Assembly: GCA_905612295.1 (NCBI GenBank) | Contig: CAJQRN010000022.1 | Location: 1 to 41,511, forward strand | DNA length: 41,511 nucleotides | Source: an uncultured Candidatus Nitrosopumilus sp. | GTDB lineage: Archaea; Thermoproteota; Nitrososphaeria; Nitrososphaerales; Nitrosopumilaceae | Reading direction: 5' to 3' | Shown: positions 19,551 to 41,039 of the stretch, piece after piece | Numbering within the stretch: position 1 is the stretch's first letter | How the letters are laid out: each line of letters starts with the position of its first letter | Position numbers and translations under genes: made by a program | Notes under the pieces: model-generated | Databases searched by the model: none | Seen by the model: only the letters and a program-made list of their open reading frames with translations | What the model was told of the DNA's origin: nothing

Positions 19551-21021
<1,471 letters not shown>

Positions 21022-21163
21022 TAGACATGGAAAGTGTACGGGTGTACATAATGTTCACATTGAAATCATCGATGCAATGCATCACGAAAGTGATGTATGA
21101 AGGATGTAGTGGGTCGCTTACCGGCGACTTGCAATGATCGTCGTGCATAGTCGTGTAATATGT
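21022..21163 (+). other. 16S-23S internal transcribed spacer without tRNA
   Basis: About 140 bases. Euryarchaea usually carry tRNA-Ala here; no cloverleaf or CCA-proximal pattern is present. The spacer consists of the 16S stem strand, a GAAA-capped hairpin and the start of the 23S stem strand. Confidence 0.8.
21038..21061 (+). other. 3' strand of pre-16S processing stem
   Basis: Complement of 19464-19487, giving a 24-bp helix that loops out the whole 16S. Just downstream, 21078-21097 forms an 8-bp hairpin closed by a GAAA tetraloop. Confidence 0.7.

Positions 21164-21165
<2 letters not shown>
21136..21165 (+). other. 5' strand of pre-23S processing stem
   Basis: Pairs with 24221-24248 over 28 base pairs, four of them G-U, with single unpaired bases at 21148 and 21157. 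The core is GTCGTGT-A-ATATGTGG against CCACATAT-ACACGAC. Confidence 0.7.
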
Positions 21166-24172
<3,007 letters not shown>

Positions 24173-24176
24173 CTTA

Positions 24177-24248
24177 CATAGAGACTATGCGCGATGAATC
24201 ATTTTCATTCATCAACAAATCCACATATACACGACTTGTACGATGATT
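24177..24248 (+). other. Pre-23S trailer with hairpins and 3' strand of processing stem
   Basis: CATAG-AGA-CTATG (24177-24189) and GATGAAT-loop-ATTCATC (24193-24213) are hairpins. 24221-24248 pairs with 21136-21165 to close the 23S processing stem. No 5S rRNA gene follows. Confidence 0.65.
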
Positions 24249-24454
24249 TCATTTTAAATCACACATAGCGTTAGCTATGCACTGTTGATTTCATTTTAAA
24301 TCACACATAGCGTTAGCTATGCACTGTTGATTTCATTTTAAATCACACATAGCGTTAGCTATGCACTGTTGATTTCATTTTAAATCACACATAGCGTTAG
24401 CTATGCACTGTTGATTTCATTTTAAATCACACATAGCGTTAGCTATGCACTGTT
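24245..24454 (+). repeat. Five perfect tandem copies of a 42-bp unit behind 23S
   Basis: Five head-to-tail copies with no differences. Each unit has two inverted repeats: GATTT-CATTTT-AAATC (5-bp stem) and CATAGC-GTTA-GCTATG (6-bp stem, tetraloop), and ends CACTGTT. A sixth copy stops after GATTT. The first four bases are also the outermost bases of the 23S processing stem. An RNA read through it would form ten hairpins; no spacers exist, so it is not CRISPR. It is likely in or at the end of the rRNA transcript. Confidence 0.95.
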
Positions 24455-24472
24455 GATTTGAAAATTAATTCA

Positions 24473-24952
24473 TTAATCTTTCATATATTTAAAATCTGAA
24501 TTATCTTCTGAATCTTTAATTTTTATAATTAATGTATTCCCTAATTTGTTGCATATTCTTTGCCTTTTTTCATTTGTAATTATCCATCCTAAAATTATGT
24601 CTATTGGAAGTATGAATGATTTTCCAAAACTACTGATAATAACCCCTATCAAACTTGGGCTTTCACCTAAATTATTCACAATTTTTAGGTTAAACATTTT
24701 TTTTCCAATAGTTTGACCTGTTTTATATTCTAAAATTATCCAATATACCAAAAACATAACACTTGTTGGAATATACATTCCATCATCGGAGACAAAATTT
24801 TCAAAATTGTAATCTAGGTATAGAAAAGATATGAAGAAAATTAATGTTGATATCATTGAAATAATAATAAAATCCACTAACCATGCAAGAAATCTATCCT
24901 TCCATTTGGCAAGTATTATTTTTGATGATCCATTACTATCTACATTACTCAA
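24473..24952 (-). CDS. RDD-family membrane protein
   Basis: 159 residues. The RDD pattern is clear: WKDRFLAWLVDFIIISMIS (Arg then Asp in helix 1), a second helix SVMFLVYWIILEYKTG, then GQTIGKKMFNLKIVN and a third membrane region SFGKSFILPIDIILGWII. RDD proteins are small polytopic membrane proteins, some implicated in ion or solute transport. It is convergent with the rRNA operon, its stop lying 18 bases past the tandem repeats. Confidence 0.8.
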   Translation of the reverse strand: MSNVDSNGSSKIILAKWKDRFLAWLVDFIIISMISTLIFFISFLYLDYNFENFVSDDGMYIPTSVMFLVYWIILEYKTGQTIGKKMFNLKIVNNLGESPSLIGVIISSFGKSFILPIDIILGWIITNEKRQRICNKLGNTLIIKIKDSEDNSDFKYMKD

Positions 24953-25056
24953 TATCTGATCTTTTTTTTAGTTAGTAAAATACGTTAACTATTAAAATAA
25001 TTTTGAATATTTTTAAAAATTAACTTAGAAATTAATAGTACTAATTTTAAATAAAT

Positions 25057-25917
25057 TTGAAATTATTTTTGATAACTATAAACCCGATTGATGTATTTCT
25101 TTGGACATTTCGTAAAAACGAAAAAGATGTGATAAATCTATACAATACAATGTCTCCTGTTATGCAGCTTGCCACTGGAGGTAGTATGCTTAATTTTGGT
25201 TACTGGTCTTCAAAGCATCTAGATCCAATCTCTGCACAAGATAATTTATGCAACGTTTTTGGAAATTTATCTGAATTATCTACTGCAAAAAATGCCATTG
25301 ATGTTGGAAGTGGATTGTCTGCCCCCTCTAAATTGTGGCGAGACTCTTTTCCAGATCTTAATCTTTATGACGTAAATATTAATTTTAAGCAATTATCTTT
25401 TTCAAAACATCAGAAAAATATTGAATTTTTAAATTCCACCTCTACTAAATTACCCTTTAGTGATAATTCTGTGGATCGTGTATTAGCTTTAGAATCTGCA
25501 CAACATTTCAAACCTTTATCTGATTTTATTGTTGAATCTAAACGAGTTTTAATTAAATCTGGGTTTCTAGTAATTGCTATTCCAATAACTGTTAATGATT
25601 CCTCCCTTGGAAAGTTAGGATTATTAAAATTTACGTGGTCATCTGAACACTATAGTTTAGATTATTTAAGAAATCTTCTTACTTCTAATGGTTTTAAAAT
25701 AACTGATGAAATGTTAATCGGTTCTAATGTTTATGATCCACTGACAGATTATTATGTTGAAAATAGAAAAACTCTGAGCCGTACAATTCTTGAACATTAT
25801 CCTGGCTATATGGAAAAAATTCTTTACAAATCATTATTAAAAATGAAAAAAGCATCACAAGAAAAAATTATTGATTATGTACTTTTGAAATGTTCTTTAG
25901 ATTCTGATTTGGAATAA
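25057..25917 (+). CDS. SAM-dependent methyltransferase
   Basis: 286 residues from a TTG at 25057; the next in-frame ATG (codon 32) would remove a conserved-looking lead NLYNTMSPVMQLATGGSMLNFGYW. Motif I is AIDVGSGLSAPSKLW (Asp82-Gly86) and motif post-I ends NLYDVN; LPFSDNSVDRVLALES is the acidic-loop region before motif III. The N-terminal ATGG-x-MLNFGYW lead resembles methyltransferases acting on lipids or quinones. It is not fused to anything; substrate unknown. Confidence 0.8.
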   Translation: MKLFLITINPIDVFLWTFRKNEKDVINLYNTMSPVMQLATGGSMLNFGYWSSKHLDPISAQDNLCNVFGNLSELSTAKNAIDVGSGLSAPSKLWRDSFPDLNLYDVNINFKQLSFSKHQKNIEFLNSTSTKLPFSDNSVDRVLALESAQHFKPLSDFIVESKRVLIKSGFLVIAIPITVNDSSLGKLGLLKFTWSSEHYSLDYLRNLLTSNGFKITDEMLIGSNVYDPLTDYYVENRKTLSRTILEHYPGYMEKILYKSLLKMKKASQEKIIDYVLLKCSLDSDLE

Positions 25918-29443: not shown

Positions 29444-29565
29444 GTGGTATTTTGTCCTTTTTTCTTTCTATATATTGCAATTTTGAAGATAAATCGTGCC
29501 TTGTACTTTTCTTTTTAAATAATGCATGAAAATCTTTAATTCATTCATAATTGCGTCTTTTTATA

Positions 29566-29931
29566 ATGACTGAAATTAAAATTTCTAATACTATTCCTAA
29601 TTTACGTAAAGAAATTGAACAAATTCATTCTGAATTAACTAACATGGGTGATGTAGTTTCAAATATCCCTGAACTGATTACTTCATCTAATTTACTTCGT
29701 TCAAATGAATCTCTAGTAAAATCCGATCAAAAAAAAACAGATCTTATTTCTCTTTATGCCCAGTATGCCTCATCCATGGAGGCTATGCTGTCATCCCTTT
29801 TTGAAATACAACACGAATTAACTGGCATTTTACAAGAACAGTCTTCTATGCTTACATCTTCTTCTAAACCAAAATCTAAACCAAAATCTAAACCAAAATC
29901 TAAACCAAAATCTAAACCAAAATCTAAATAA
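29566..29931 (+). CDS. Coiled-coil protein with a lysine/proline repeat tail
   Basis: 121 residues from the ATG at 29566 (frame open five codons further). The first 100 form helices with a possible coiled coil (LRKEIEQIHSELTNMGDVV, YASSMEAMLSSLFEIQHELTG). The last 20 residues are KPKS repeated five times plus Lys, encoded by five identical 12-bp units. The basic tail suggests DNA or polyphosphate binding, as in histone tails, but is not proof. Family not recognised. Confidence 0.65.
   Translation: MTEIKISNTIPNLRKEIEQIHSELTNMGDVVSNIPELITSSNLLRSNESLVKSDQKKTDLISLYAQYASSMEAMLSSLFEIQHELTGILQEQSSMLTSSSKPKSKPKSKPKSKPKSKPKSK
29866..29925 (+). repeat. Five perfect 12-bp coding repeats (KPKS tail)
   Basis: AAACCAAAATCT, five copies in frame, translates as KPKS each time. 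The identity at DNA level indicates recent copy-number change by slippage, within the end of the coiled-coil gene. Confidence 0.95.
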
Positions 29932-39589: not shown

Positions 39590-39645
39590 CTAATTAGATT
39601 CACCTAATTAGATTCACCTAATTAGATTCACCTAATTAGATTCAC
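39590..39645. repeat. Four perfect tandem copies of a 14-bp unit
   Basis: CTAATTAGATTCAC repeated four times without change. Each unit holds the palindrome CTAATTAG. It lies 51 bases upstream of the small membrane gene (minus strand) and ends five bases before the stop of cysS. It may be an operator/promoter array or part of a cysS 3' end; the T-rich run after it is on the plus strand only. Confidence 0.95.
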
Positions 39646-39650
39646 TTTTT

Positions 39651-41039
39651 TTATTTTTCTGATTTTATTTTTTCTTTTTTCATCCAAATTGTTCTTTCTT
39701 TATGATCAATTAATTCTATGTTCATTTTATTTAATTTATCTCGAATTTTATCTGCTTTATCAAATTGTTTTTCTTCTCTAAATTTTTCTCTGTTTAAAAT
39801 TAGTTCATCTATCTCTTGTATTTCATTTTGACTCATTTCAGGTACAGTTAATCCTAGTATTGATGAAATTCTTTCAAACTCTTTTTTAATAATCGCCCCG
39901 TTTTCTTTTCCTAATTTTTCTGCTGCAGCTAATCTGTTTGTTTCTTTTACTAATTGAAAAAATGCCGATAATGCAAGATGTGTGTTGAAGTCATCCTCTA
40001 ATGATTTATCAAATTCTATGCCTATTTTCTGAACATTTTCTGATATATTTTCCTGATTTTTATTATTTGCATGAATTAATTCAAAATAACATGTTTCTAC
40101 TTGTCTCCATTTTGTAAGATTTTCTTTTAACATATCTTCTGAATAATCTATTACTTTGGAATAATGTCCTGATAAGCAAAACAATCTGATTATGTTTGGA
40201 CCCCAATTTTCTAACACTTGTTTAATTGATTTTGTATTTCCTAATGATTTTGACATTTTTTCACCACTAATTGTAACCATACCTACATGCATCCAAATTT
40301 TTGCAAAAGGTAAATTTGTACATGCTTCTGATTGTGCAATTTCATTTTCGTGGTGAGGAAAAATTAAATCTCGTCCACCGCCATGAATATCAAAATTTTC
40401 TCCAAGGTACTTTAAACTCATTACTGAGCATTCGATATGCCATCCTGGTCTTCCTTTCCCCCATGGACTCTCCCATGTTGGATTAATATCTGAAAATTTC
40501 CATACTGCAAAATCTGCTGGATCCTTTTTTGTTTCATCTATTTGTATTCTTGATCCTGACTGTAGTTCGTCTATTTTCTTTTTTGAAAGTTTTCCATACC
40601 CTGAAAATTTTGAAACTGCAAAATACACTCCGTTTTTTGTAACGTATGCTATTTCTTTATCAATTAATTTTTTAATAAATTCTATAATGTCTTCTATGTG
40701 TTCTGTGGCTTTTGGATAATTTGTGGCACGTTTAACATTTAACTCCTCAAAATCTCTAAAATAATTTTCAATGTATTTTGAACTAATTTCTTCTGCAGTT
40801 ACATTTTCTTTAGTGGCACGATTTATGATTTTATCGTCTACATCCGTAAAATTTTGAACAAAATCCACTTCAACTTGTTTACTTTCTAGATATTTTCTTA
40901 AAACATCAAAAACTATGATTGTTCTGGCATGTCCTATGTGCGATTCATCATACACTGTAACCCCACAGAGATAAATTTTAATTTTTTTTGTAATGTCTAA
41001 TTCCTGTTCAACTGCTGTTAATGTGTCCTGGAGATTCAT
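39651..41039 (-). CDS. cysS: Cysteinyl-tRNA synthetase
   Basis: 462 residues, the expected length. Class I signatures: HIGH at 34-37 (VYDESHIGHA) and KMSKS at 261-265. The zinc ligands of CysRS are seen as Cys25, Cys204 and His229/His230 (IFPHHENE). FTDVDDKIINRA is the family motif. The C-terminal helical domain ends in a lysine-rich tail. Starts four bases after nadE, so they form an operon. It charges tRNA-Cys directly, so Sep-tRNA chemistry is not required. Confidence 0.97.
   Translation of the reverse strand: MNLQDTLTAVEQELDITKKIKIYLCGVTVYDESHIGHARTIIVFDVLRKYLESKQVEVDFVQNFTDVDDKIINRATKENVTAEEISSKYIENYFRDFEELNVKRATNYPKATEHIEDIIEFIKKLIDKEIAYVTKNGVYFAVSKFSGYGKLSKKKIDELQSGSRIQIDETKKDPADFAVWKFSDINPTWESPWGKGRPGWHIECSVMSLKYLGENFDIHGGGRDLIFPHHENEIAQSEACTNLPFAKIWMHVGMVTISGEKMSKSLGNTKSIKQVLENWGPNIIRLFCLSGHYSKVIDYSEDMLKENLTKWRQVETCYFELIHANNKNQENISENVQKIGIEFDKSLEDDFNTHLALSAFFQLVKETNRLAAAEKLGKENGAIIKKEFERISSILGLTVPEMSQNEIQEIDELILNREKFREEKQFDKADKIRDKLNKMNIELIDHKERTIWMKKEKIKSEK

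Follow-up and report, generated by a model that had tools for sequence, protein, structure and literature searches.

A conserved 23S rRNA trailer element, tandemly amplified in one Nitrosopumilus lineage

We asked why an rRNA operon of Nitrosopumilus should end in a row of identical repeats. The window (the whole stretch of 41,511 nucleotides analysed here, from an uncultured Candidatus Nitrosopumilus sp.) carries, directly 3' of the pre-23S processing stem of its rRNA operon, a 42-bp tandem array for which TRF reported 5.1 copies with 100% matches (24244-24459) and a score of 432, the highest in the window. As the initial annotation had noticed, five identical units of TGATTTCATTTTAAATCACACATAGCGTTAGCTATGCACTGT stand behind the stem (24244-24453), and one extra TGATTT follows copy 5 and ends at 24459 (Table 1). 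The 16-nt core CATAGC-GTTA-GCTATG occurred five times versus none expected in shuffles. Each unit has 16 T and 12 A, which gives U-richness on the rRNA strand, and contains one U4 tract; the U tracts of the array reach only U4.

A search of the window at Rfam gathering score returned the two rRNAs only, without a family match for the array or the trailer element, and no tRNA was found in the 16S-23S spacer. Several other kinds of repeat were rejected: CRISPR, as the copies abut without spacers; a dispersed repeat, as no further copy of the unit occurred in its own genome or in the relative G006 (a single locus); a phage, viral or mobile origin, as there was no viral or phage match; and a coding repeat, as the array lies between the 23S rRNA and the stop codon of the downstream RDD gene and no ORF of at least 80 aa covers it.

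Table 1. Features of the rRNA operon, its trailer and the 42-bp array, in window coordinates.
Feature	Position	Strand	Remark
16S rRNA	19551-21021		
Pre-23S stem base, 5' strand, TGAAATCATCG	21061-21071	+	leader + trailer fold
Inner processing stem, 5' strand	21133-21166	+	BHB-like bulge UAU 21159-21161; leader + trailer fold, prediction only
23S rRNA (archaeal LSU)	21171-24168	+	Rfam RF02540, 2654 bits
Inner processing stem, 3' strand	24169-24203	+	BHB-like bulge AGA 24180-24182; leader + trailer fold, prediction only
Conserved motif TACACGACTTGTACGATGATTTCA	24228-24251	+	last 11 nt (24241-24251) are the 3' strand of the stem base
Repeat unit copy 1	24244-24285	+	first 8 nt within stem base
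First predicted long hairpin, AAAUCA-CA-CAUAGC-GUUA-GCUAUG-CAC-UG-U-UGAUUU	24256-24291	+	recurs every 42 nt
Repeat unit copy 2	24286-24327	+	
First U-rich linker, CAUUUU	24292-24297	+	between predicted long hairpins
Repeat unit copy 3	24328-24369	+	
Repeat unit copy 4	24370-24411	+	
Repeat unit copy 5	24412-24453	+	
Terminal TGATTT	24454-24459	+	closing arm of fifth predicted long hairpin; putative remnant of founding direct repeat
RDD-family membrane protein gene, convergent	24473-24952	-	PF06271, E 1.4e-17; stop codon 13 bp behind array

The processing stem and the predicted fold of the trailer

When leader and trailer were folded together, the stem base CGATGATTTCA (24241-24251) paired with TGAAATCATCG in the leader (21061-21071). 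The array had been thought to start inside the last four bases of this stem; in the fold the shared stretch is 8 nt, with TGATTTCA (24244-24251) predicted to pair with leader TGAAATCA (21061-21068). The leader base AATCATCG was kept in 16 of 19 relatives with a readable leader. The inner part of the predicted fold pairs leader and trailer around the 23S rRNA with two 3-nt bulges on opposite strands, as in a BHB, the central helix being predicted at 6 bp versus the canonical 4 bp; the array is outside this motif. The RDD gene lies directly behind the array in those members of the window's clade (see below) with enough flank, and since it is convergent the array could shield the gene from antisense read-through, rather than insulate a promoter.

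The motif TACACGAC(T) (24228-24249) recurs in the trailers of relatives, once in the stem motif and a second time behind the last hairpin (e.g., CTATGCACGACTAT); this distal copy was seen in, for example, L009, L011 and L022 and is absent from the window's clade. Because TACACGAC(T) is complementary to the leader strand of the BHB-like stem, GTCGTGCATAGTCGTGTAATATG (21140-21162), alternative leader-trailer pairings are possible. An apparent further hairpin at 24193-24213, GATGAATCATTTTCATTCATC, has arms that co-vary among relatives (e.g., GATGATCATATTCATATCATC) and competes with the processing stem.

Folded in silico, as the initial annotation had proposed, the trailer was strongly structured: 24170-24475 folded better than 100 of 100 shuffles (z = -6.0). 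A single 42-nt unit folded alone formed two small hairpins (-9.4 kcal/mol), in keeping with the earlier picture of up to ten hairpins along the array; when the next TGATTT was included, the prediction changed to one longer bulged hairpin (-10.9 kcal/mol; 1 of 200 shuffles was as good), so that five bulged hairpins, and not ten small ones, are the more stable form. With pairing limited to 45 nt, five long hairpins separated by CAUUUU were obtained, the fifth closed by the terminal TGATTT. Unrestricted folding permits pairing between copies, and the five-hairpin picture would therefore apply only to local or co-transcriptional folding. In two relatives (L008 and L078) the two-hairpin form was favoured over the fold with the outer helix.

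Compensatory changes, as seen in conserved structured RNAs, were found in the inner helix, where four of the six pairs had changed on both sides and the structure-wide score was reached in 0 of 500 shuffles; the outer helix gave a weaker signal, with at least four outer pairs in 37 of 49 sequences versus 24 expected, modestly above shuffles. Covariation was measured here by a count on the named structure, which did better than RNAalifold; applied to the whole first-unit alignment, the latter yielded hardly any covariation term, owing to the strong conservation of the sequence.

A family-wide trailer element and its multiplication

It had been supposed that normal archaeal rRNA operons have nothing of this kind. 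This stood for the tandem multiplication and failed for the element itself, which in single copy is a regular feature behind the 23S rRNA across Nitrosopumilaceae: stem base TACGATGATTT, a TAGC-N4-GCTA hairpin and usually a T5-T8 run. Nearly all 23S trailers of Nitrosopumilus and Nitrosarchaeum have TACACGACTTGTACGATGATTTYATTTTWAATCA, then the hairpin, usually then T5-T8, and often diverged further hairpins downstream (e.g., TAGT-GAAA-ACTA). With an exact 20-mer of the motif TACACGACTTGTACGATGATTTCA, 49 genome-contig stretches were recovered. A covariance model trained on 22 trailer sequences found the element in 43 of the genus's 56 good-quality genomes and also in other genera of the family, no match outside the family being listed among the genomes of the order that were sampled; there is essentially one trailer-element locus per genome. 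One Nitrosopumilus-type 23S rRNA with trailer (L043, CAMYLW010000159.1) stands on a contig assigned to a Desulfobacterota MAG, most likely through a binning error. The array is a lineage-specific tandem amplification of this conserved trailer element, which is absent from Rfam; our literature search returned no description of this trailer, nor of the ending of the rRNA operon in ammonia-oxidising archaea.

The window's clade in the 23S tree is one well-supported group of 11 members (100/99), and the 42-bp array was present in all 11. Conservation among close relatives, on which the initial annotation had let its reading depend, is thus present, and the comparison of copy number that it had suggested gave 2-6 copies. 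Over the whole 23S tree the array state needs at least five changes, and the well-supported branches alone force only two. Arrays with units of their own occur in other lineages: 46 bp x3 (L016), 42 bp x4.7 (L070), 43 bp x3 (L076), 44 bp x4 (L079) and, read from the sequence, 87 bp x2 (L056, isolate NORP47). The 87-bp duplicated unit includes the TACACGACTTGTACGATGATT motif, and a T8 run behind the hairpin is kept only in its last copy.

Within a genome all copies agree (save for one base in G006), and from genome to genome they differ, the pattern expected under concerted evolution; together with the range of copy number among relatives, this agrees with the recent expansion or homogenisation that had been proposed. 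In three single-copy relatives (L010, L011 and L013) TGATTT boxes stand exactly 42 bp apart around one hairpin, which identifies the unit as the segment between two direct repeats and explains it by slippage. A segment between direct repeats with an internal hairpin is a classical slippage substrate. Slippage between two such boxes flanking the hairpin in the clade ancestor would have given the duplication, and further slippage or unequal exchange would set the copy number and keep the copies identical.

Divergence between clade members was 4.4% in the unit, 24% in the 40 bp that follow the array and 28% in the RDD gene at third codon positions; six sites of the unit vary, all outside the inner stem. 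The low divergence of the unit relative to the third codon positions shows that it is constrained. As the copies are homogenised, this constraint attaches to the unit and not to each copy separately, and it does not imply that each copy matters.

Formation of the 3' end and competing explanations

Of the 38 genomes without an array, 28 had a run of 5-8 T no more than 14 nt from hairpin 1, versus 0 of 18 array genomes. Array and loss of the U5+ run involve about five changes, two of them on well-supported branches, and because independent comparisons are so few the correlation is suggestive, not significant phylogenetically. This genome has a gene that passes the arCOG00543 (TIGR03675) cut-off; we take this archaeal KH/beta-CASP family to be aCPSF1/FttA. 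Archaeal termination occurs at U-tracts, usually of 4-7 U, with aCPSF1/FttA; the aCPSF1 of the thaumarchaeon Cenarchaeum works with U-tracts likewise, and published archaeal terminators mostly need no hairpin (PMC8716108, PMC7515710). On the strength of the U5+ loss in array genomes, U-tract/aCPSF1 termination and the arCOG00543 gene, we favour with moderate confidence, from sequence comparison, the explanation that the array consists of serial weak terminators or 3'-end-forming hairpins, in which U4 tracts and aCPSF1/FttA would replace one stronger U-tract signal.

The trailer element (stem base, hairpin and U-rich tract) would, on this explanation, make the 3' end of the rRNA transcript. RNA polymerase that has passed the stem would meet n successive modules of a hairpin and a U-rich block ending in UUUU, each of them a weak pause or cleavage site for U-tract-dependent termination with aCPSF1/FttA, and together these modules would take the place of the one stronger signal, a hairpin with U5-8, that relatives have. 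The array would be transcribed, termination or cleavage would take place there with an additive effect of the copies, read-through into the convergent RDD gene would be limited, and the transcript would be left with a hairpin-capped 3' end. Several points speak against serial terminators: the tracts in the array are only U4; a scan of 23900-25100 for a hairpin + T-run terminator consensus returned 0 sites; the archaeal terminators described in the literature mostly do without a hairpin; the correlation with U5+ loss has few independent events behind it; the outer helix is only modestly above shuffles and gives way to two hairpins in L008 and L078; and the constraint belongs to the unit, not to every copy. 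A bacterial-type intrinsic terminator, a GC-rich hairpin with a T run directly behind it, was rejected, both because of that negative scan and because the hairpin in the window is followed by CACTGTTGATTT, not by a T run. A wider proposal, which we put forward tentatively and regard as rather unlikely, is that a dedicated, previously undescribed hairpin ends Nitrosopumilaceae rRNA and that in one clade copy number sets termination efficiency, a fast-changing array thereby acting as an evolvable dial on rRNA 3'-end formation and repeatedly replacing the single strong U-tract.

Neutral slippage of a constrained element is a strong rival, possible in our judgement though short of probable. The array would then be a minisatellite with one functional copy of the trailer element, and turnover would keep the extra, passenger copies the same. 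Slippage is especially frequent where direct repeats enclose a hairpin, and single-copy relatives have such repeats at the required distance; arrays came into being on several occasions, with differing units and phases; and copy number varies from 2 to 6, the nearest relative (L184) having the window's own unit x3. Homogenisation would mask any sequence constraint on the extra copies. Neutral turnover sits less well with the retention of the array in 11 of 11 clade members in the tree, none of which has gone back to one copy, and with its rank as the highest-scoring noncoding tandem repeat of G006, a genome with few of these (23 of period at least 20); moreover array genomes are without the U5+ run, as expected had the copies taken over.

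A processing or stability element, as opposed to a terminator, is unlikely. Its hairpins would block exosome 3'-5' decay, serve a trimming nuclease or guide folding of the stem, which would fit with copy 1 overlapping the stem base, with the conserved complementarity of the leader and with the stability of the predicted hairpins. In Haloferax, circular pre-rRNA and mature rRNA both depend on the processing stem and BHB (PMC7038931), which also speaks for this reading. However, the U-rich block that follows the hairpin in most relatives would be superfluous for a pure stability role, and the stem-overlapping part is the same in single-copy species, so that multiplication is not explained.

We consider it very improbable that the array is a protein-binding DNA site, a polymerase roadblock or replication-fork barrier in the manner of the eukaryotic rRNA terminator boxes, with the hairpin as palindromic dimer site and 42 bp as four helical turns. 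The core is palindromic, the spacing is exact and the site follows a very active operon and is itself followed by a convergent gene, but the periods of 43, 44, 46 and 87 bp in other lineages do not keep helical phase, the T run after the palindrome is strand-asymmetric in single-copy species, and there is no second locus with the site.

That copies were inflated or invented by assembly is hardly credible: a perfect repeat of 216 bp is beyond short-read length, exactly 3 copies (about the maximum spanned by a 150-base read) occur in many relatives and some contigs terminate inside the array, but more than a dozen independent assemblies have at least 2 copies, unit variants are species-specific, and the single contig of G006 has five copies with a marker base, the one that differs, in copy 2. 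Tandem arrays occur at the same place in many independent assemblies, so a one-off artefact can be dismissed. The count of five in the window, a draft assembly, is uncertain, because the array is longer than a short read and the contigs of several relatives (G023, G116 and G069) break within it; in L184 the unit has the same sequence as in the window and 3 copies.

Comparable systems and other repeats in the window

The ending of the most heavily transcribed operon in ammonia-oxidising archaea appears to be little studied. Eukaryotic 28S rRNA genes have tandem terminator boxes behind them (Sal boxes / TTF-I), which are protein-bound DNA sites; the array is like these in placing short tandem terminator-like repeats immediately behind the large rRNA, and unlike them in that RNA hairpins are favoured here, and there is no homology. 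Serial terminators of bacteria include those of rRNA operons, e.g., T1-T2 of E. coli rrnB. Clustered or serial intrinsic terminators in bacteria (PMC8355165) likewise close an operon with a succession of hairpins, but their copies are not identical tandem ones, the polymerase is another, and the hairpin + T-run scan was negative here. The array may resemble archaeal U-tract/aCPSF1 (FttA) terminators (PMC7515710, PMC8716108) in its U-rich blocks of at least 4 U behind a transcript, in its consecutive sites and in the presence of the factor gene; those terminators are mostly hairpin-free, whereas in the array every U-rich block has a conserved hairpin in front of it, and the module is tandemly repeated. 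As regards the archaeal pre-23S BHB stem (PMC7038931), the array begins in the stem base and the operon has a BHB-like motif, but the array itself is outside the BHB and not in the described stem.

A family-wide trailer element that was repeatedly made into arrays offers natural variants with 2-6 copies of one module at one site, which would make the roles of hairpin and U-tract in archaeal termination and pre-23S processing directly testable; it also adds a conserved RNA element not in Rfam.

Two other short tandem repeats were seen in the window. At 39590-39645, immediately past the stop codon of a minus-strand ORF (39651-41039), the 14-bp unit CTAATTAGATTCAC occurs in four perfect copies, which makes this the second perfect noncoding array next to the 3' end of a gene. 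At 29863-29928, the 12-bp unit TCTAAACCAAAA is present x5.5 at the end of a plus-strand ORF (29551-29931), where it apparently encodes a short repetitive lysine-rich tail.
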